Part shown: positions 6,248 to 62,845 of the stretch, piece by piece
Layout: the number at the start of each line of letters is the position of its first letter
How positions within the stretch are numbered: position 1 is the first letter of the stretch
Source: a virus
IMG/VR virus record: IMGVR_UViG_3300009610_000006
Location: 1-64,000 of that record
DNA length: 64,000 nucleotides
Direction: 5' to 3' (one strand)
Notes under the pieces: model-generated
The model's input: the letters and a program-made list of their open reading frames with translations, nothing else
Databases searched by the model: none
Told to the model about the DNA's origin: nothing
Program-made: the position numbers and the translations under genes

Positions 6248-7483
6248 ATGGCAACCGAACAGACCGCAACCGTTAAGAAGAACGTCACCCCCGCCGCCGT
6301 TGTGGCGAAGGGAACCCGTGTCGATGTCACCGCAACGCCGCTGGTGATTCAATCAGCACAGCAGATCCCCGTCAAGGACTTGGTATTGCTTGACAACCCT
6401 GGCCGCATGGAAGGCGATAACAAACTAGAGATGCTGCGCCACGCCATCGAACAGGCTGGCCAAGTGTTGCAGGCACTGACCATCAGGCCGACAACCGAGG
6501 AAGATGGGGAACATTTCGCGGAAGGTAAGTTTGCAATCGTAGACGGTCGCCGCCGCTTCCGCTGCGCGAAATCACTGGGCTTCAAAACTGTACCCGTCAT
6601 CCTGTGGAACCCCGGCAAGGGCAAGGACCGCATCACCACTGTCCAGGGTGCGATCCTCGCCAACCTCGCCAACCGTAGCCTCACCGCACCCGAGATGCTC
6701 AATGCATTCCTCGCCCTGGCCGACGACCTGGACTGGGATGTGAAGGTACCCAAGGCTGGCGAGAAGGGAGTGGGTGCCTGTGGCAAGGACGTGGAGAAGC
6801 TGGCTCGATACACCGAGACCAGCAAGGCCACCATCTACCGCACCCTCCGCATGGGTCTCCTCGACAAGGACATCCTGAAGAAAGTCCACAACAAAGAAGT
6901 CGGTGCCGATGCCGCCCGTGACATGGGTGGTCTCGCGGCCAGCGGATTCCTCACCGAGGACCAGATCAAGCTGGTATTCGAGGAAGCCTTCGACGCCAAT
7001 GCCAAGAAGAAGATCGACAACAAGCGCGACCCGAATGCGCCAGACACCAGGACGCCTGATCAGATACGCTTGGACAACCTGGAACGTAAGCGCAAGCTGG
7101 CAAAGAAACGCGCGGCCAAGGCCAGCGAGAACGGTGAGGGTGGTGCCGAAGTCGAGGAAGTCGAGGAGGTCATTGCCGTATCCAAGGGTGATCTCAAGAA
7201 GGCAGCGATCAAGCTGGAGAAGGAAGGCAAACTCTCCAGCAAGGCGGCGGCAGCGGTGGCTGAGGCGGCGGGTAAGGGTGCGGGTATCAGCGCCGATGCC
7301 AAGTCCATGACGCTCAAGCTCAAGCACCTGGACGACCTGTGTGAGGAGTTGATCAACGACGAGAATCCTCACATTGCCAAACTTGGGGCCGCAATGTCCA
7401 AGTTCATGGACGGGTCGCTGGTCATGCCCGAAGTGGTCAAGCAGTTCGAGAAGCACTGCCTGCCTGCTGATGACGTGGAATAG
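6248..7483 (+). CDS. ParB/KorB-like DNA-binding protein (411 aa)
   Basis: The N-terminal domain (about residues 35-130) follows the ParB pattern: an I-P-V-K-D-L strand, then V-D-G-R-R-R-F-R-C-A-K-S-L-G-F near residue 98, equivalent to the G-E-R-R-x-R-A-A box. A central helix-turn-helix lies near residues 178-205 (Y-T-E-T-S-K-A-T-I-Y-R-T-L-R), followed by an N-K-E-V-G-A-D-A-A-R segment typical of the ParB/KorB linker helices. The C-terminal third is Lys/Glu/Ala-rich with a helical end (about residues 360-405) that could dimerise. ParB and KorB proteins bind short palindromes and spread or repress. No ParA/IncC partner is seen nearby. It is my leading candidate for the protein that binds the 13-bp palindrome. 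Confidence 0.88.
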   Translation: MATEQTATVKKNVTPAAVVAKGTRVDVTATPLVIQSAQQIPVKDLVLLDNPGRMEGDNKLEMLRHAIEQAGQVLQALTIRPTTEEDGEHFAEGKFAIVDGRRRFRCAKSLGFKTVPVILWNPGKGKDRITTVQGAILANLANRSLTAPEMLNAFLALADDLDWDVKVPKAGEKGVGACGKDVEKLARYTETSKATIYRTLRMGLLDKDILKKVHNKEVGADAARDMGGLAASGFLTEDQIKLVFEEAFDANAKKKIDNKRDPNAPDTRTPDQIRLDNLERKRKLAKKRAAKASENGEGGAEVEEVEEVIAVSKGDLKKAAIKLEKEGKLSSKAAAAVAEAAGKGAGISADAKSMTLKLKHLDDLCEELINDENPHIAKLGAAMSKFMDGSLVMPEVVKQFEKHCLPADDVE

Positions 7484-17929: not shown

Positions 17930-19399
17930 ATGGCGGTAGACTTTTGGCCGTATCTAACCAGGGGGGTGGGCGCACGTTGCAGTCAATGCATCGCTAGCCT
18001 CGACCCCAGCCAGTACAGTCACGTCGTCCCGCCCTGTGGGCCAGCCGATGCAGATGTCGTACTCGTTGGCGAGGCCCCCGGTGGGCAGGAGCGGGACGAG
18101 CCATTCCAGGGGAATGCAGGTATGGAACTAGATAACCACTACCTGCCCCTGGCCAAGTTGACCCGTGACGAGGTATACATCACTAACGTGTGTAAGTGCC
18201 GCCCACCGTCGAACCGCACCCCCAACGTGAAGGAAATAGGTGCGTGCTCGATGCACTTCCTGGCGCGTGAGTTAGACCGCCTGTCACCCAGGTTGGTCGT
18301 ACTTATGGGCGGCACTGCATCTAGTATAGTGGACGGCAACCCCGTAGACCTGGAGAGTGATCATGGGCGGCATTACCACGGGACGATACTGGGCAGGGGG
18401 CCGTATGACATCATGCCCACCTATCACCCGGCACTGGGGTTGCATGTGTCGAATCGTATCGACGCCATCGAGGAGGGGTTTAGCAATGTCGGCAAGTGGT
18501 TGGCCGGTAGGTATAGTGAGCCGGTCGATGAGTGGGCCGGTGAGGAGGAGTATGTATATCTAGAGGATTGGGACGGTGGGCACAAGGGGAATCGCCCGGT
18601 GTTCATCGACAGTGAGAGCGAGTATGGGGCATTGTACTCATGGCAATTCACCCAGGTGCCGGGGGTGGGGGTGATGGTCCAGGAGCATGGGGACTCGACC
18701 CAACGCATTGACAGCAAGAGGAGGTATTTGCAAAGGCTACTCAACGAGTGCAAGGTGCTGGTGATGCAAAATGCTATCGTCGAGGTGGCGGCATTTAGAG
18801 CACTGGGCATACACGTGGACTGGGCCAAGGTAACAGATACAATGCAGATCGCCTACAGGCGTGCGATGTCACAAGGTCTCAAGCCACTGGCACGCAGGCA
18901 TTGCGGCATGAAGATGCAGTCATACATGGAGGTAACCAACCAAGCTAGTAAACGCAAAGTCAAGGAGTGGATAGTGGAGGTAGTTGATCACCTGCCGCAG
19001 TTAGTCACTAACCGGATCAGCGACAAGACCGGCAAGTACTTGAAGCCTAAGAGAAGTGAGAACCCCATGGTGGCAGTACTCGATGGGATACTGCGATCCA
19101 TGACCACGAATCCCAAGTACGACCCATGGAAACGCTGGCGAGAACACAAGGAGGAACTACCGGCGGCAGCGACACAGGCCGCGATAGAGACAAAGAAGAA
19201 GCAATGGTACTGGCGGGAGTGGCTGTTGGATCACGTAGGTAGTGACATGCCACAACGGGGACTGCGACACGTAGACCCAGTGCTCGCCAAATGGTACGCC
19301 TGCCGGGACGCCGACGCAACCTGCCGGGTGTACTACACGATAGGCAAGGACTTAGACAGTCTATGGAAAGTGAGAGAGTATGACTGGAACGCGCGGTAG
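17930..19399 (+). CDS. Uracil-DNA glycosylase (family 4-like) fused to DnaQ-like 3'-5' exonuclease (489 aa)
   Basis: Residues 1-185 match family 4 uracil-DNA glycosylases: Fe-S cysteines C-S-Q-C near 17-20 and C-K-C-R-P-P near 86 with a further Cys near 102, motif G-E-A-P-G-G-Q-E-R near 46 and M-P-T-Y-H-P-A near 161. Residues 220-480 carry exonuclease motifs: I-D-S-E-S (Exo I) near 225, Q-N-A-I-V-E near 280 with T-D-T-M near 302, and a final W-Y-A-C-R-D-A-D (Y-x-x-x-D, Exo III) near 455. The polymerase at 21852 lacks its own exonuclease, so this protein probably supplies proofreading and uracil removal in trans. A palindrome copy inside encodes L-V-T-N. Confidence 0.85.
   Translation: MAVDFWPYLTRGVGARCSQCIASLDPSQYSHVVPPCGPADADVVLVGEAPGGQERDEPFQGNAGMELDNHYLPLAKLTRDEVYITNVCKCRPPSNRTPNVKEIGACSMHFLARELDRLSPRLVVLMGGTASSIVDGNPVDLESDHGRHYHGTILGRGPYDIMPTYHPALGLHVSNRIDAIEEGFSNVGKWLAGRYSEPVDEWAGEEEYVYLEDWDGGHKGNRPVFIDSESEYGALYSWQFTQVPGVGVMVQEHGDSTQRIDSKRRYLQRLLNECKVLVMQNAIVEVAAFRALGIHVDWAKVTDTMQIAYRRAMSQGLKPLARRHCGMKMQSYMEVTNQASKRKVKEWIVEVVDHLPQLVTNRISDKTGKYLKPKRSENPMVAVLDGILRSMTTNPKYDPWKRWREHKEELPAAATQAAIETKKKQWYWREWLLDHVGSDMPQRGLRHVDPVLAKWYACRDADATCRVYYTIGKDLDSLWKVREYDWNAR
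19000..19012. repeat. 13-bp palindrome, centre C
   Basis: GTTAGTCACTAAC inside the glycosylase-exonuclease gene, read as L-V-T-N. Confidence 0.95.
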
Positions 19400-21762: not shown

Positions 21763-21849
21763 ATGGACATCTCTATCCCCTACCTCACTGGCGTATTCAT
21801 CCTGGGCTTCATCCTGGGGTTCATCATTGGCCGGGAGTGGCGCGACTAG
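21763..21849 (+). CDS. Possible 28-residue membrane peptide
   Basis: An ATG directly after a palindrome copy opens 28 codons encoding a hydrophobic G-V-F-I-L-G-F-I-L-G-F-I-I-G segment with a charged R-E-W-R-D end. There is no Shine-Dalgarno. The frame stops two bases before the polymerase ATG, which supports coupling. Uncertain because of its size. Confidence 0.4.
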   Translation: MDISIPYLTGVFILGFILGFIIGREWRD

Positions 21850-21851
21850 TT

Positions 21852-23360
21852 ATGTATATCCCATCGCGAGTCCGCCACCCCAGCTTTGCCAACACCCAGG
21901 CGCTCGACCGTCTCCCTATGCCCACAATCGAAGACATGATGCGCCTGGGGGTGGCAATTGATGTCCCCTACCTTAGCACATTAGCTGAGGAAATGCGTGA
22001 TACTATGGAGGATCTCTCGGCTAGGGTCCGGCGACGGGTTCCGCACGACAAGCTAGCAGAGTTTCTCGGCAACGACGTTGATGACACCGGCGACGATGCT
22101 GAGACTGCGGGGGAGGTGAGTAACGAGTCGGTATCGGTAGCCAGCCGGTTCAAGGTCACCTCCCCCGAACAGGTGGCATGGTTTCTATTCGACACCCTAG
22201 GCATAGGCAGGGGTAAGGAGTTAGTCACTACCCCGGATGGGTCACGCATATCCACAGGTAAGAAACAATTAGAAGCACTCAAGGCCGAGCATGAAGCGAT
22301 TCAGGAGATACTAGCTTTCAGGGAAGTTCATAAGCTATACACCACCTATGTCCTCAAACTTCCGCGGATCGCCCGACACCATCCTAAAGGCCGTCATTGT
22401 CCTGTATGCGGTCATACTCATCGTGAGTCTAGTAATAGAGTTCACTCGACCATAGTAGCGACACGCACCGACACTGGTAGACTAGCTGGACGTCGCCCCA
22501 ACCTGATGAACATCCCCATTAGATCCCCCATGGGGGCAAGAGTGCGTGCGGCGTTTGTGCCCAGCTACGGCATGTCCATGGTGGGCGCAGACTATAGCCA
22601 AATAGAACTACGTATCCTCGCCAGCGAGTCTGCCGACCCGTTCATGATGCAGTGCTTCATAGATGGCCGCGACATACATGCGGAGTCCACCCTTGAAGCG
22701 ATGGGCATTCGAGACAAGGTGGCCTTCGACCCGAAGTCCAAGGCCATCTACGCCATTACCCCTGGTGCCACTATCCCCACCATACAGGAGTTCATGACGA
22801 TGCGTGCCGGGATGAAGAACGCCAACTTCGGCATCGTCTACGGCATCACCTGGATGGGGTTGCAGGCCCAGCTTGTCCTCATTGGCATCTACTGGTCTAA
22901 GGAGCAGACCATCGCGTTCATCGAGGAAACATGGCACAAAGTGTTCGCCGCCATCCGGCCCTACATGCGGGAGCAGGAGTATCGCGCGCGTAAGTACGGC
23001 TTCACCTGGGACTTGATGGGTAGTGTGCGGTACATCCATGGTATACGCAGTGCTGTGAAACGAGTAGTAGCCGAGAGCGTCAGGCAGGCGGGTAATATGC
23101 CGATTCAATCTGCCGGTTCCGCATTCCTCAAGATTGCCATGTGGACGTTGCGCGGGGTCTACGAACGGTTCCGCGATGACGGGTACGAGGTGAATTTTCT
23201 GATGCCGGTTCATGACGAGATTGTATCAGAGTGCGATACAGCTATAGCCGAGGAGTTGAAGGCCGCAACCGTGGAGTGTATGGCCAGGGTCAACGACTAC
23301 ACCCAGTTACTCGTCCCGGTCGCCGCTGAGGGCAAGGTGACCAGCCGGTGGACGAAGTAG
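21852..23360 (+). CDS. Family A DNA polymerase, polymerase domain only (502 aa)
   Basis: Polymerase motifs are clear: D-T-G-R-L near residue 205, motif A G-A-D-Y-S-Q-I-E-L-R near 245, motif B K-N-A-N-F-G-I-V-Y-G near 322 and motif C V-H-D-E-I near 452. A finger insertion with a C-P-V-C-G-H-T-H zinc-like pair lies near residue 180. There is no 3'-5' exonuclease domain; that activity is on the separate glycosylase fusion. I chose ATG 21852; GTG 21837 is an alternative adding five residues. It should replicate the phage genome. Confidence 0.9.
   Translation: MYIPSRVRHPSFANTQALDRLPMPTIEDMMRLGVAIDVPYLSTLAEEMRDTMEDLSARVRRRVPHDKLAEFLGNDVDDTGDDAETAGEVSNESVSVASRFKVTSPEQVAWFLFDTLGIGRGKELVTTPDGSRISTGKKQLEALKAEHEAIQEILAFREVHKLYTTYVLKLPRIARHHPKGRHCPVCGHTHRESSNRVHSTIVATRTDTGRLAGRRPNLMNIPIRSPMGARVRAAFVPSYGMSMVGADYSQIELRILASESADPFMMQCFIDGRDIHAESTLEAMGIRDKVAFDPKSKAIYAITPGATIPTIQEFMTMRAGMKNANFGIVYGITWMGLQAQLVLIGIYWSKEQTIAFIEETWHKVFAAIRPYMREQEYRARKYGFTWDLMGSVRYIHGIRSAVKRVVAESVRQAGNMPIQSAGSAFLKIAMWTLRGVYERFRDDGYEVNFLMPVHDEIVSECDTAIAEELKAATVECMARVNDYTQLLVPVAAEGKVTSRWTK
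22220..22232. repeat. Near-copy of the 13-bp palindrome (1 mismatch)
   Basis: GTTAGTCACTACC inside the polymerase gene, read as L-V-T-T. Confidence 0.55.
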
Positions 23361-51802: not shown

Positions 51803-54800
51803 CTATGAACATAAGAACGCGGCCTGTCTTATCACTTGGGTATCGGTTCTTTTAATGTAGAAATACAAGTAACTGTTCGTATGATTATAGTAGATCATCA
51901 TTGTCCCAAGCGGCATATTCGCGGTGTCTGCTCCACCGGGTGCCGAATTCCCCATGACGATATTGCCCCCTGACGGGTTCAGGTACAACGTACCTACTCC
52001 AGCGGCGTGCCATGCCTGGATGGAGCCTCCGTAGAACCCGCCAGCGTAGGAGGAGTAGCCCATTGCCATTCCGTAGCCGGGGTTGGCGGAACCCTCGCAG
52101 ATGAGCACCTGTTGCTGGGCTTTGGTGAAGTTGGTGGGGTTTGCGGTCGGGACGATTGTGAGCAGGTTGGGGGGATTGACCCAGGTGGGCTGGGTGGGAA
52201 GCATCGCGCCGATGTTGCCGATGGCTACGTTGCCGCCAAGCGGGTTGATGAACATGGGGCCGGGGGCGGGGCCTACGTTTTGGATTACGCCTGACCAGAC
52301 GGCGTTGATGTAGCAGAAGCCGAGTCCCATGCCGTATGCGCCGTTGTTGGATGACTCGCCAATGCGGACCTGTAGACCGGCGGCGGCAAAACCGGTGATC
52401 GTACCGGGAGCAATGATCGAGAGAGTTTGATAGGGTGCGCTCATTTGACCAATGCCAACCTGACCGCTTGCGTTTATGGTCATGCCAATAGGACCGCCGC
52501 CCGATCTCAATTGGAGACCGGCAGCGATGGAGCTTATCTCCCAATGGTAGGAGTTATCCGGGGGACGGAGCATGATGGCGTTCCCGCCGCGTATCTCCAT
52601 AGGTCCGCCAGAGAGAGTGAGCTTAGAGGATGGCGTATCCGGGCCAATACCGACTGTTTGAGTCGCCGATATGAGCATGGCCTGAACATTGCCTGTATAG
52701 AACTGCAACGGGTGAGCGGTCGCGGTTCCAACGGCACAAGTGGCGTTGCAGTTGAACCGGAAGTCCACGCCGGGGACAGTCATCCGCATGAGGTAACCGG
52801 CGATATCTAATGTCACGCCAGCCGCGCATCTCATCGCAACACCGACACCACCGTCAGGTGTGATGCTCATCCGCTCGATTGGGGCATCTCTGTATGTGCC
52901 GAAGGCAAGACCGCCATAGCCTGACGCATCGCTGAATGATTCGACGTAAGGGCAGAGTTGCGGATTAGAGACAAATCCGTTGTGCGGCCCAAGCCGAAGC
53001 CTCATGCTATTGCCTGCCCCGGCTCCGATGCTGTTGATAAACGTTGCGGTCGCGGTTACCGTCGCGCCGCTCACCATCAGGAAATGCTCATTAACTGAGG
53101 ACGCATTGATCGAGATGATGCGCGGATTGAGCAGGTTTTTTTGATTGCCGTCGATGTCGGTCGCCCACGGTGTCTGGGAGCCGCCGGTACTAAGTGGCAC
53201 ACCGTTGACTAAGTACTGGCCGGTGACGTTGCAGTTACCCACGATGTCGAGCGCATGGCCGGGGGCAGTTGTGCCGATGCCTACGCCAGCAACGACACCG
53301 GAGCCGCCAAATGGCATCAGGTTAATAGTCGTGGCAGTAAGTGTGATGGGAGCAAAGGCACTCTGGGCAGAGGTTACGCCTTCCAGGATTGGGCCGAGCA
53401 GGCCGGGAGGGAAGCCAAATGACACTGGGTCGCCCCGGATGATGAGCACACGGTCAGTGGCCGCTTCGACAGTGAAACGTCCAGAGGTAACATTGGTGGT
53501 GCCAATGCCCACGTTGCCACCGCTGGGGCAGAGGTGGATGTTGCCGAAGCCGCTGCCGTTCCAGTGCAGGATGCGACCGGCGGCTGCGTTCGACTGGAAC
53601 GCCATGAATTGCGTCGTACTCGCACCGGAGACTAAGATTGCGTCGGAATCATCAGTCCCCTTCATTACATGGAGTTTTGCGCCCGGAGCAGCGATGCCGA
53701 TTCCCACGTCTCCCGCCGCCGTGATCCGCATCCGTTCCAATTGGTCGGTCCAGAGTGTCAACGGATGGAAGCTCATGCATCCAACCCGCCCGTACCCGCT
53801 ACTGTGGGCGGCGTATTCCAGGATGACTGTGTCGGCGACTGACCAGATTTGACCGGCCACTTGCAGGGCAACCTGTGGGCTGGCTACCTGGATGCCTATG
53901 GCAGCGACACTGTAGAGGATTTTACTGTTGCCGTGGATGTCCTGTGCCCACGGGGTTTGGGGTTGGCCGCTGGTGAGTGGCACGCCGTTGACACGGTAGA
54001 CTCCAGTGATGTCGATGTCGCCACTGACCTCCAGTTTGTAAGTGGCGGGAGTTTTGCCGATGCCTACGAGGCCAGCCGCAGTGATGCGGACACGTTCGGC
54101 TGGGGTAGAGCCGGTTTGCAGGGATAGATAAGTGTTGCTGGATAGTGCAACTGAGGTGCTACCCGCAGTTATGTTGCCACGGGCCGCGCCTGCCGCCTGG
54201 AAGTAGATGGCAGTGCTGCCAGCGGCCCCCGTAGTGTCGATGAATAGAAACGTACTGGAGGTCGGGCCTTTGAACCTGACGTCGCCACGGACTTCAAGTT
54301 GTTCACTAAACGGAGTGCAGGCAATGCCTACCTTGCCATCTTCCTTCACCCGCATACGTTCGACTTCCTGGGTCGCAAAGATGATGGGAGTAGCCGACTG
54401 GGTGTAGAAGGACAGGACGTCGCGGAGGCCCACGGTGGCGAGTGCAGAGCCGCCGAAGATGAGACCGCCTAAGTGGCCAAGGTCGTTGCCAATGATGATG
54501 CTGCCAGCACCGGTCGTGGCCGAGTCGAAGTGGCGGAAACCGGCGACACCGGCACCAGCGGTTTGCACGTAGACGGCAGCAATAACCGGGTTCGCCCCCG
54601 CACCGACACCGATACCCTTGACTCCACCGAGATTGAAGTTAGCCGCCCAGATATCCTGCGTCCAGGGGGTTTGGCCAGCGCCGGTGATGGTGACAGTGGT
54701 ACGGTTGTTGGCGGCGTCGTCGGTGGCGGTGACACCCACGCCAATAAAGTTGAGAGCAGTACGGGCAGTGAGAGGCGTGCCTTCGTCCTGGATTACGTGT

Positions 54801-56581
54801 CCACCAGTGGCACCGGGAATAGTGACGTCAATGCTGCCGTTGGGGTCGTTGACAGACAGGGAGACGCCAGCGCCGACGAAGTTGAGATAGGTCTTCTGCG
54901 GGTAGCCGATCCCTTCATCCATGGTGTTGACAGGCCCGGAGAGACCTTGGATGCCCTGGATACCTTGTGGACCAGTGGGGCCGGGTATACCTTGGGGGCC
55001 AATGGGACCGGTTGCGCCGATGGGGCCTTGCTCACCTTGGGGGCCGGTGACGTTACCGGCGTCGATCCAGGTGCCGGATGCGGCGTCCCATACCCATAAG
55101 TGGCCGGTGTCTTCGGCGACCCATGCGTCACCGGGGGAACCGGTGGGGGGTAGTTGGCCAGCGTTATCGACGGTGCCCTGGATGTTGAGACCTTCGCCTT
55201 GGGGACCTTGTGGGCCAACGGGGCCGGTGTTGCCAATGGGGCCTTGGGGACCGGTGTCGCCTTTGACGCCTTGGGGGCCTTGTACACCTTGGGGTCCAGT
55301 GGCACCGGTTTCGCCCATGGGGCCAGCGGGGCCGATGTTGCCGGTTGGGCCAGTGGGACCCATGGGGCCTTGGACACCCTGGACGCCTTGTGGACCGGTG
55401 GGACCGGGGACGCCTTGGATACCCTGTGGGCCAGCGGGTCCCATGCTGCCTTGGGGCAATACCTGGATGGAGAGTTGGGTATTGTGCGGGAAGGAGAGTC
55501 CACTGATGCAGGTCGCGGGGACGGTGAACCAGCCGGGGTTGACGATGACGGGAGAAGTTAGTGACCAACTTTGGGCAGATGCGGCGTTGTAACGGTCCAC
55601 GATGAGGAACTCGTCACCGGGGGACATGAGTTGGAAGTAGGTGAGTACATCGTAGCCGTCGCTGGTGAGGAGGTCGATGTAGAGCTGAGTGGATAGTGGC
55701 TGGTTGGCAACGTTGTAGCGGATGTAACCCGGGCCGGGGTCAGATGGGATGACGGTGTTGGCGTCTACTCTATAATGAAACGTCGAGGTCGATTCGCCAG
55801 GGGTGCCAGTATCGCCCTTGACGCCTTGGGCACCAGTGGGGCCGACGACACCTTGGGGGCCGGTGGGGCCTTGGGGGCCGGGGTCGCCTTGATCGCCCTT
55901 TTCACCTTCGAGACCGGGTAGACCTGGGAGACCTTGTACGCCGTTGGTGCCGGGAGGGCCTGCGGGACCAACTGGGCCAACTTCGCCGGGTACGCCGGGG
56001 GGTCCCTGGATCAGGCCGCTGTCTACCCAGGATTGAGTGTCCTCGTCCCAGACCCAGAGGTGGCCGGTGTTTTCCACTACCCAGGCGTCACCGGGGTCGC
56101 CAGTGGGAGGTAGGTCACCAACAGTGTCCACTGCTCCATTGATGGCAATGCCGGTGCCTGGGGGACCTTGGGGGCCGGGGGGTCCCTGTGGGCCGACGTC
56201 GCCTTCACTGGATGCGAGTGGCGTAAGGACTTGAAATGATGGCGTCCAGGGGTAGTAGGCGGCTTGGACGTATTGATGAAGGGCAATGTCACCAACCTCT
56301 AGGGGGACCTCGATGGTGCCACCTTCGGCCTTTGTCAATGGGATGGGACCGAGGTTATTGAGGTTGATGGTGACGGGGCCGGTGTTGGGTCCACTTGCGT
56401 AGAAGCCTATTTGTATGTACGGGAGTTTGTCGGTGAGTTGGTCATAGGAGGAGAGGGCTGGGGAGGGGATGCCAGTGATTACGTCGGTGCCGACAGGCGT
56501 GAATACGATGACCTCCTGGGGCCGGGACGGGTATTCGACACTGGTGGTTTCGATAGAACGTTCGTCTAAAGTGGGTGTCAT
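51803..56581 (-). CDS. Collagen-like tail fibre (1592 aa)
   Basis: Residues about 130-280 and 385-560 are collagen-like G-x-y triplets ([17 protein letters not shown]), with two near-identical G-x-V-D-x-x-G-x-L-P-P-T-G-x-P-G-D-A-W-V insertions. From 700 on there are multiple V-G-I-G-x-x-P/L-x-V-x-G modules typical of phage tail-fibre shafts. It is probably the receptor-binding fibre. GGAGAG lies upstream of the ATG. Confidence 0.85.
55557..55569. repeat. Near-copy of the 13-bp palindrome (1 mismatch)
   Basis: GTTAGTGACCAAC; the coding strand reads TGG where the consensus would put a TAG stop in this frame. Confidence 0.6.
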
Positions 56582-60670: not shown

Positions 60671-60683
60671 GTTAGTGACTAAC
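60671..60683. repeat. 13-bp palindrome, centre G
   Basis: GTTAGTGACTAAC containing the stop of the 59-residue leftward gene at 60679. Confidence 0.95.
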
Positions 60684-60858
60684 TATCGGCTAGAATCTCG
60701 CGCATTCTGGCCACTATCTCGTTAGGATACCCATCACCAATGCCGTAGCCGGGGTCATTTTCTATATATTCCTTAATAATCGCCTCCAGTATGCGGATAC
60801 GCTGGTCGCGCAGTGCGATTTCCATGCTTTTTACACGACATTTCTCACATTTCGCCAT
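60679..60858 (-). CDS. Small leftward protein with C-x2-C (59 aa)
   Basis: The rightmost gene of the leftward half. AAAGGG lies seven bases before the ATG at 60858. The product begins M-A-K-C-E-K-C-R-V-K, then a charged helix (A-L-R-D-Q-R-I-R-I-L-E-A-I-I-K-E-Y). The CxxC and helix resemble small zinc-binding phage proteins. Palindrome copies lie at both ends of the gene. Confidence 0.55.
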   Translation of the reverse strand: MAKCEKCRVKSMEIALRDQRIRILEAIIKEYIENDPGYGIGDGYPNEIVARMREILADS

Positions 60859-60874
60859 TTATTCGCCCTTTCCA

Positions 60875-60887
60875 GTTAGTGACTAAC
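60875..60887. repeat. 13-bp palindrome, centre G
   Basis: GTTAGTGACTAAC upstream of the 59-residue leftward gene. Confidence 0.95.
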
Positions 60888-61020
60888 TGTTTATTTCTAG
60901 TATAGCATATTATTTTATGCCCCAATAGTTCAAAAATTGGTCGTATTCTGGGTACACCATGGGACCCATCCGCCCGCCCCCTGGCCCCGCGCGGGTGGTA
61001 CGTGTCATTGTCTTACCTCG
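60888..61020. other. Non-coding stretch before the iteron-like block
   Basis: An AT-rich segment (TTTATTTCTAGTATAGCATATTATTTTATG near 60889-60918) is followed by a GC-rich C-G-C-C-C-G-C-C-C-C-C-T stretch. The AT-rich part could be a DNA unwinding element for the repeats that follow. No gene seen. Confidence 0.45.
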
Positions 61021-61110
61021 CGTGTCTCGCGTGGTACGTACCACGTAGCACGTACCTCGCGTACCACGTGTCTATCACTACGTACCTCGCGTACCACGTA
61101 CCTCGCGTGG
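61021..61110. repeat. Iteron-like repeats with a 30-bp period
   Basis: CGTACCTCGCGTACCACGT occurs at 61051-61069 and 61081-61099, exactly 30 bases apart. A related unit occupies 61021-61050 and contains the perfect palindrome GTGGTACGTACCAC (61031-61044). A truncated fourth unit overlaps at 61097. The block has features of a replication-origin iteron array or multi-site operator. Confidence 0.65.
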
Positions 61111-61243
61111 CTTACCAATGGTATTGCGGCCGCGTTTGTATCCTTTATATAGCACACAAAAATAACAAGACGCCGCGTTCAATCTAGCCCTAGCTGGTCC
61201 GCCACGAGTACAGCGGATGTAAGGAAAACAGCCATTCTTGCAA

Positions 61244-61256
61244 GTTAGTGACTAAC
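61244..61256. repeat. 13-bp palindrome, centre G
   Basis: GTTAGTGACTAAC in the gene-poor control region. Confidence 0.95.
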
Positions 61257-61292
61257 TCGATTCCTGCTATCTATATGATTCTAAAGAGAAAA

Positions 61293-61384: not shown

Positions 61385-61700
61385 TCTTTTAGATCCAATA
61401 AAATGGGGTAGGTGAATCGTTTTTCCCTGAAAATCTTACCATGTAATCGCAGTAAAAATCAGGTAAATAGTACATCTTTTACCAGTCATTTGTGCCGTCT
61501 CGGCATGGTTGCTTTGTCGCATAAAGTACACATCCTCATGATTCTATTGAGTCTGGCAAGGCAAATTTGAGTTTGGCCATGACCTTGCATTAGTAGCAGT
61601 GTCCGCAAGTACCCAAGAGCGAAACGAAAGCTCACGAGCGAGAAAAGCGGAGATTACCTCAGTTATTTGACATATTCGGCATCGCAAGCATGAATCCAAT

Positions 61701-61753
61701 CGGCGGGTAGTCATCCCCAGAACCGAAGGAGTAAGACGGCGGGTAGTCATCCC
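61701..61753. repeat. 17-base direct repeat, two copies
   Basis: CGGCGGGTAGTCATCCC at 61701-61717 and 61737-61753, start to start 36 bases. Within the RNA-like region. Confidence 0.8.
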
Positions 61754-62170
61754 TGTGTCGGTCTAGTTAGGTCATGTCGGCCACCTTGAAGGGCGCGATG
61801 CTTAAGAGCGAGTACGGAACACGGTCACGCGGACTGTCGGATGATAGTCTATCGACGCGAGACTCGCATAAGGTTAACGGACATAAGTTAGTTGCTACAC
61901 GTGTATCTTGGAAGAAAGACCGTCGGCAAGGTGGAGAATCCCTTGATCGGTCCCCTAGTGAGTAGCCATGGACTAAGTAAATCTCAACTCCATGGTGTCG
62001 CGATGGCGGTAAGATGCGCGAGCGATCACCCTAACAATTCCAGCGTGGGTATTGACCACTGGTAGGCGTAGCGATGCTTAAACGAACGGTCCCCAGTAAA
62101 ACACAATAGCGGTCTAGGGTACAGGCAGACTGTAGCCCATGATTCGCAACATAGATACGACCGACAGACA

Positions 62171-62183
62171 GTTAGTCACTAAC
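62171..62183. repeat. 13-bp palindrome, centre C
   Basis: GTTAGTCACTAAC near the end of the RNA-like region. Confidence 0.95.
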
Positions 62184-62248
62184 GAACAGAACGCGATAGC
62201 TCCATCGAGAGCTGCGTCCCTGCGACGGTGGCGGACTGGACTGTCGGT

Positions 62249-62297
62249 ACGGCTATGGCGATAGATAGAGGAGAACTGTATCTACCGCCATAGCCGT
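62249..62297 (+). other. Long hairpin upstream of the 62338 gene
   Basis: ACGGCTATGGCGATAGATA (62249-62267) pairs with TATCTACCGCCATAGCCGT (62279-62297) with one mismatch around an 11-base loop containing GGAG. No T-run follows. It may end the RNA-like region or regulate the next gene. Confidence 0.65.
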
Positions 62298-62337
62298 CCT
62301 GGTATACAGGGAATGAGCTATATGGAGAACTAATCAC

Positions 62338-62748
62338 ATGGCTATCAACACGACCGTTAAGAACATGATCAATGGCAAGGCGATTGCGACAGTACCGACT
62401 GCTGTCCCGTCTTTCGACATCTCGGCAATCGTTGCCGCTGCCGTGGCCGATGCGCTGGCCAAGATCACGGCACCCAAGCCCGTGGTCGATAACTCGGCCA
62501 CCATCGCCGAAATCGCCCGTCTCAAGGCAGAGAATGCCAAACTGTCTGCTGCCAAACCCGTCGTCAAGGTCAAGCGTCCGTTGGTTTTCAAGGTGTCCGA
62601 GAAGCGCGCTATGTCCATCTACAATCTCGGCGCTCGGTTTCCCGTCACGCTGTACAAAGAGCAGATGCTCACTCTCCTCGATGCCGAGAAGGAGATCCGC
62701 GCCTTTATCAAGGCGAACGACTCGGCGCTGGCCAGCAAAGGCGAGTAG
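62338..62748 (+). CDS. Hypothetical protein (136 aa)
   Basis: TGGAGAACTAATCAC precedes the start. The N-terminal half is hydrophobic/Ala-rich with repeated V-A-A-A-V-A-D-A-L-A, followed by a heptad-like A-R-L-K-A-E-N-A-K-L coiled coil and a charged C-terminal helix. It looks like an oligomeric adaptor; family not recognised. First gene after the control region. Confidence 0.65.
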   Translation: MAINTTVKNMINGKAIATVPTAVPSFDISAIVAAAVADALAKITAPKPVVDNSATIAEIARLKAENAKLSAAKPVVKVKRPLVFKVSEKRAMSIYNLGARFPVTLYKEQMLTLLDAEKEIRAFIKANDSALASKGE

Positions 62749-62773
62749 TACCGCCAGTACCGTCTAGCGGCAT

Positions 62774-62845
62774 GGGGTGTGCCGACAAACACCCCCACGA
62801 ATAGGCTATCCACGGGAGAGTTGTCTCTCGGGGGTGGCCTATTCG
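62774..62845 (+). other. Tandem hairpins between the 62338 and 62887 genes
   Basis: GGGGTGT (62774-62780) pairs with ACACCCC (62789-62795), then CGAATAGGC (62798-62806) pairs with GCCTATTCG (62837-62845), with CGGGAGA/TCTCTCG nested inside. No T-run. A structured leader, perhaps an attenuator or riboregulator. Confidence 0.55.

Follow-up and report, generated by a model that had tools for sequence, protein, structure and literature searches.

The locus and its gene context

Does the stretch from 61540 to 62330 of this viral DNA, which an earlier note had described as gene-free and rich in helices, specify a large phage RNA, and what would such an RNA do? The window, i.e. the whole stretch of DNA analysed here, comprises 64,000 of the 65,851 bases of a single IMG/VR virus record. 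The absence of genes was borne out; indeed, open reading frames reach 41-68 aa at most and none exceeds 68 aa on either strand. The stretch belongs to an intergenic gap that extends from 60350, the start of a leftward gene, to 62338, where the next real gene begins, and that holds one small leftward ORF (60679-60858). The rightward genes run from 62338 to the window end and then from 1 to about 24,300, and they encode helicases (UvrD-type and Helicase_C_2-type), a UDG/DNA polymerase pair and a ParB_N protein. Among the leftward genes, which occupy 24,301-60,350, are one for a terminase-like protein and one with a major-head-protein match. Since divergent modules lie on both sides, the stretch lies in the control region between them, and the structured RNA proposed below is placed by comparison on the plus strand, between leftward structural genes and rightward replication genes.

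The rightward module opens with a gene (Table 1) for a protein whose predicted structure is too poor for a structure search (mean pLDDT of 59). Its C-terminal domain (SVYGLGRFPVTLYKEQ) recurs in G028, a virus contig that is unrelated in other respects (L005:4911-5150). Elsewhere in the window, the DNA polymerase (phrog_17) is apparently split into two ORFs about 2.4 kb apart (17930-19399 and 21837-23360), the first of which carries a uracil-DNA glycosylase domain match, and a 1592-aa protein with collagen-like repeats is encoded among the structural genes (51803-56581).

Several sequence elements of the control region and of the window at large were noted in passing. A perfect 13-bp palindrome, GTTAGTNACTAAC, is present in 42 copies in the window, at gene starts and inside genes (for example at 60874-60888, 61243-61257 and 62170-62184); when up to two mismatches were allowed, the 15-mer gave 47 matches for 0.05 expected. 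Among the relatives, 27 copies are found in G004 and 39 in G005, and the palindrome is absent from the unrelated G028. It may be an operator or stoperator, or the binding site of the phage's ParB_N protein (411 aa, 6248-7483), which is a candidate reader of the palindromes. A leftward promoter-like block (60850-60985, minus strand) is conserved in all four lineages compared below, with an extended -10 motif at 60907 on the minus strand (TGCTATACT, or TGGTATAAT in G004) kept in each of them, a covarying inverted repeat GCATA/TATGC (CCATA/TATGG) and the upstream motifs GGGTCCCAT and GAGACCAA; the conserved extended -10 suggests that bacterial-type promoters are used in the control region. Iteron-like repeats, CGTACCACGTACCTCGCGT, lie at 61014-61117, and the equivalent position in G005 is taken by other tandem repeats, GGAGCCGGGAGC, so this is possibly a replication origin.

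Compensatory changes in related viruses

Syntenic loci were found in G004 and G011 via the protein of the downstream gene at 62338, and polymerase and terminase searches yielded 27 related virus records, most of which are fragments that do not reach the RNA region. Three records of the same virus family, G005, G016 and G020, are mutually identical at the RNA region and were counted as one lineage. The comparison thus comprises four distinct sequences (the window, G004, G011 and G005), that is four independent lineages of which three are fairly close, aligned by sequence. The same intergenic region is found at the same place in the three other lineages; the window shares about 70-73% identity with G004 and G011, and it can be aligned with G005 in blocks only, above all at 62029-62069. 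No relative, and hence no host, was found among prokaryote genomes in the terminase search, and blastn of the window, G004 and G005 versions against 50,697 phages gave a 32-nt chance match at most. In motif scans, viral contigs outside this virus family gave no match apart from a chance one inside a coding gene of contig L066. Nine matches in a motif scan of prokaryote genomes were likewise judged to be chance: they lack the flanking conserved bases, and each overlaps a reading frame of at least about 160 codons, most of more than 340.

The RNAalifold consensus of the window, G004 and G011 contains 181 pairs, 27 of which are changed on both sides, a number matched by none of 500 partner shuffles (slid controls, 1-5). 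In the fitted structure, 94.4% of the cells are paired, compared with 32-41% when the partners were slid by 1-3 columns. Because this structure is fitted to the very alignment on which it is scored, the columns were also shuffled and refolded. With this control, the region 61660-62337 gave a z-score of -9.3 on the plus strand and -3.3 on the minus strand, with 21 double-changed pairs versus 9.8±3.2 in the shuffles (maximum of 16 in 40 shuffles), and 61660-61860 gave 13 double-changed pairs for a null maximum of 7. The comparative check proposed by the earlier note thus yielded compensatory changes far above those of column-shuffled alignments. The large structured RNA that the note had proposed is supported over about 680 nt, with the plus strand favoured; its first part is not, since 61540-61620 has no structural support and windows from 61460 to 61660/61760 gave no covariation signal. 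The 5' limit is uncertain (61600-61660), and the supported element would extend from about 61620/61660 to 62310. From these alignments, it is the predicted fold and not the sequence that is conserved across the related phages.

Folding energy gave a more local signal. The 798-nt piece as a whole beats its shuffles (z of -3.4), as does its reverse complement, and in a scan the excess stability was limited to about 62100-62300, where z fell as low as -9.7. In the window, the sequence before 62150 does not outperform its shuffles (z of +0.67); in the relatives the same part is only modestly better than shuffles (-2.3 in G004, -1.1 in G011 and -2.0 in G005). Upstream of 62100, the case for an RNA, made from aligned sequences, is carried by covariation and not by folding energy.

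Domains of the predicted RNA

Table 1. Predicted elements of the RNA and features of the adjoining gene, in window coordinates.
Feature	Position	Strand	Remarks
Whole structured RNA element, about 650-700 nt	61620-62310	+	RNAalifold consensus of 3 lineages; column-shuffle control
Variable 5' part, purine-rich hairpin loops, weakly supported helices	61629-61669	+	Helices 1-2, 80-81% of cells paired
Domain closed by 61678-61685/61795-61802 and 61688-61693/61772-61777	61678-61802	+	7 of 14 pairs double-changed, 100% paired
17-base direct repeat CGGCGGGTAGTCATCCC	61701-61753	+	2 exact copies (61701, 61737), 36 nt apart
Hairpin ACTGTCG/TGATAGT on stem 61824-61832/61849-61856, then GCG/CGC hairpin	61824-61867	+	Helices 10-12
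Second large domain, closed by 61895-61902/62043-62050, containing stem 61958-61972/61989-62001	61895-62050	+	
Most conserved block, CCTAACAATTCCAGCGTGGGTATTGACCACTGGTAGGCGT	62029-62069	+	98% identity over 41 nt in G005
Helix X (62160-62167/62241-62248 and inward) enclosing hairpin Y (62198-62202/62209-62213)	62160-62248	+	Pairs in 4 of 4 lineages
Copy of the genome-wide palindrome GTTAGTNACTAAC	62170-62184	.	Within helix X in 4 of 4 lineages
Hairpin Z, about 20 bp	62249-62297	+	12 lower pairs kept in 4 lineages; one GC to AU double change
Hairpin W, CCTG/CAGG (CCAG/CTGG in G005)	62298-62310	+	UA to AU double change
Shine-Dalgarno-like GGAGAA	62324-62329	+	Read from sequence; kept in G004 and G011
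First gene of the rightward module, 136 aa	62338-62748	+	Orthologues at the same place in G004, G011 and G005

At the 5' part, the relatives carry differing purine-loop or GAAA-capped hairpins: the sequence of 61629-61669 is replaced in G004, and GAAA-capped hairpins are found instead in G005. The outer closing helix of the first domain (61678-61685/61795-61802) is the best single case of covariation in the alignment, reading GGCATCGC/GCGATGCT in the window, GACGTATC/GGTACGTT in G004 and ATCGTATC/GATACGAT in G011. Helices 10-12 are 90-100% paired with three double-changed pairs, and helices 14 and 16 of the second large domain (CTACACGT/GCGTGGGT and CGATACGT/GCGTATTG) show four in all. Around the most conserved block, G005 no longer aligns, and the core of the block is present twice in G005.

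Two repeats that had attracted attention in the window were rejected as defining features because the relatives do not keep them. The 17-base direct repeat is exact in the window, where each copy is able to form a GGG/CCC mini-stem, but as an exact repeat it is not conserved in G004 or G011. The recurring GCGATGCTTAA does occur twice, at 61795-61805 and 62071-62081, but it is not a conserved repeat: its first copy reads GGTACGTTTAG in G004 and GATACGATCAT in G011, as this copy forms one side of a helix whose changes are compensatory.

The 3' domain (62160-62310) retains its fold throughout the four lineages. All 159 of its 159 cells are paired, and its double-changed pairs (5 versus 1.8 expected) are distributed over X, Y, Z and W, with CG to AU and UG to AU in helix X and GC to AU in hairpin Y. 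Of the perfect stems previously pointed out, the long one at 62249-62297 (hairpin Z) is real. A covariance model of the 3' domain recovered a single complete copy, on the plus strand and at this position, in each of G000, G004, G005, G016, G020 and G011, and gave no match in G028 despite the shared protein domain.

A proposed long 5' leader of the replication operon

We looked at the relation of the element to the gene that follows it. In all four lineages, 26-28 nt separate the end of hairpin W from the start codon of the first replication-module gene, and no plus-strand terminator-like site is present in 61510-62800; the element thus lies directly upstream of a conserved gene, on the same strand and with no terminator between. 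The constant spacing and the lack of a terminator are most simply explained by a very long structured 5' leader. We therefore favour, at about even chances, a conserved structured plus-strand RNA that precedes the replication/early operon as its 5' leader and acts in cis. The RNA would be transcribed rightward at the head of this operon, and its fold would govern the next action of the polymerase or the ribosome. It might let the polymerase transcribe the long rightward operon processively, by antitermination, or it might set mRNA stability and translation via the terminal hairpins X, Z and W. Hairpin Z resembles the T7-type RNase III hairpins in being a long, nearly perfect stem just before the ribosome binding site, and differs from them in forming only the 3' terminus of a much larger conserved structure; as modelled, it is a possible RNase III-type processing site at which the transcript could plausibly be cut.

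Some observations argue against a leader. No convincing rightward promoter was found, and in the window the upstream three quarters of the element fold no better than shuffled sequence. The lambdoid put/nut leaders would be comparable as structured RNAs that act in cis at the start of an early operon, but they are much smaller: the antitermination leaders of HK022, the put sites, are about 70 nt, a length that the 650-700 nt of the present element far exceeds. In addition, the linkage between RNA and gene may reflect overall synteny alone, three of the four independent lineages being fairly close.

Known RNA families and other readings

GOLLD and ROOL are phage RNAs that are often found near tRNA islands. 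Rfam 15, which includes GOLLD, ROOL and HEARO, gave no family match at the gathering threshold, and no tmRNA was found with a covariance model or ARAGORN. As anticipated in the earlier note, no specific match to GOLLD, ROOL or HEARO appeared when their covariance models were run, even at E up to 10 on 721 nt. The hits on hairpin Z at relaxed thresholds (microRNA-type, and one viral D-RNA) were discarded as chance matches to a single nearly perfect hairpin. ARAGORN found no tRNA in the 64-kb window. The likeness to these families is confined to size, phage origin and the pattern of a conserved 3' and a variable 5' region, and does not extend to a covariance-model match or to tRNAs. With GOLLD, many members of which exceed 800 nt, the element shares a phage setting, a length of hundreds of nucleotides and this 3'/5' pattern (PMC12286853); it differs by the lack of any sequence or covariance-model match and of tRNAs in the window, and by the gene that follows directly without a terminator. 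With ROOL it shares the phage setting, an elaborate fold and about equal length (659 nt for ROOL env-120, PMC12286853), and it differs by the lack of a covariance-model match and of a tRNA island and by the single genomic setting in which it was observed. Given the outcome of the covariance-model test and the tRNA neighbourhood, we did not file the RNA as a member of GOLLD or ROOL.

The same comparison bears on a free-standing RNA comparable to GOLLD and ROOL, which would be transcribed as such or cut at hairpin Z into an abundant, stable molecule acting in trans or in an RNA-only particle. Its size, phage setting, 3'/5' pattern and extensive multi-domain fold are in line with this reading, while the 3' end that adjoins a gene without a terminator, the missing tRNAs and the lack of an Rfam match speak against it. 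We regard it as the main rival of the leader, though rather unlikely. In its stronger form, which is put forward as an unlikely conjecture, the RNA would represent a novel class of ornate phage RNA with several domains and no kinship to GOLLD or ROOL, made from the early control region of an uncultivated phage family, free-standing and possibly forming an RNA-only assembly.

The inverted repeats could instead act in double-stranded DNA, as a replication origin or a cruciform. Indeed, the element sits in a divergent control region near the iteron-like repeats and carries one copy of the genome-wide palindrome. However, the energy z-score favours the plus strand in all windows tested from 61660 onwards, and since G-U pairs count solely on the strand that is RNA, several one-sided changes in helix X that are kept as G-U only on the plus strand point in the same direction; both observations favour a plus-strand RNA over a DNA cruciform. 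The 3' domain is significant on the minus strand as well because its long stems are self-complementary on both strands. Moreover, a helix that closes more than 100 nt (61678-61802) is not cruciform-like, and a DNA element is thus improbable.

A known type of ribozyme or intron (group I, group II or RNase P) too diverged for Rfam would agree with the large multi-domain fold, but it is highly improbable: none of these types was matched at E up to 10 on the 721 nt, the three relatives gave nothing but one chance hit at E up to 1, no gene is interrupted and inspection by eye revealed no catalytic core. The stretch could also be a decayed gene, the alternative named in the earlier note, or a functionless spacer whose stems arose by chance. 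Although in keeping with the unremarkable folding energy upstream of 62100, this reading is very improbable, as the compensatory changes far exceed those of shuffled alignments, the 41-nt block retains 98% identity amid sequence that can no longer be aligned, and the relatives keep base pairs and not a reading frame.

Taken together, the alignments and searches indicate that the gene-free stretch looks like a new large phage RNA that no catalogued family matched. To our knowledge, large structured RNAs of bacteria and phages are few, and the most familiar of them, GOLLD, ROOL and OLE, are still without a clear function. A further RNA family that covaries strongly, has a fixed position heading the replication module and contains a core of 41 nt that is sharply conserved would be a testable case. 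If the RNA is a cis-acting leader, its size is very large and unusual for a phage; otherwise, it would be another phage RNA of the ornate kind.
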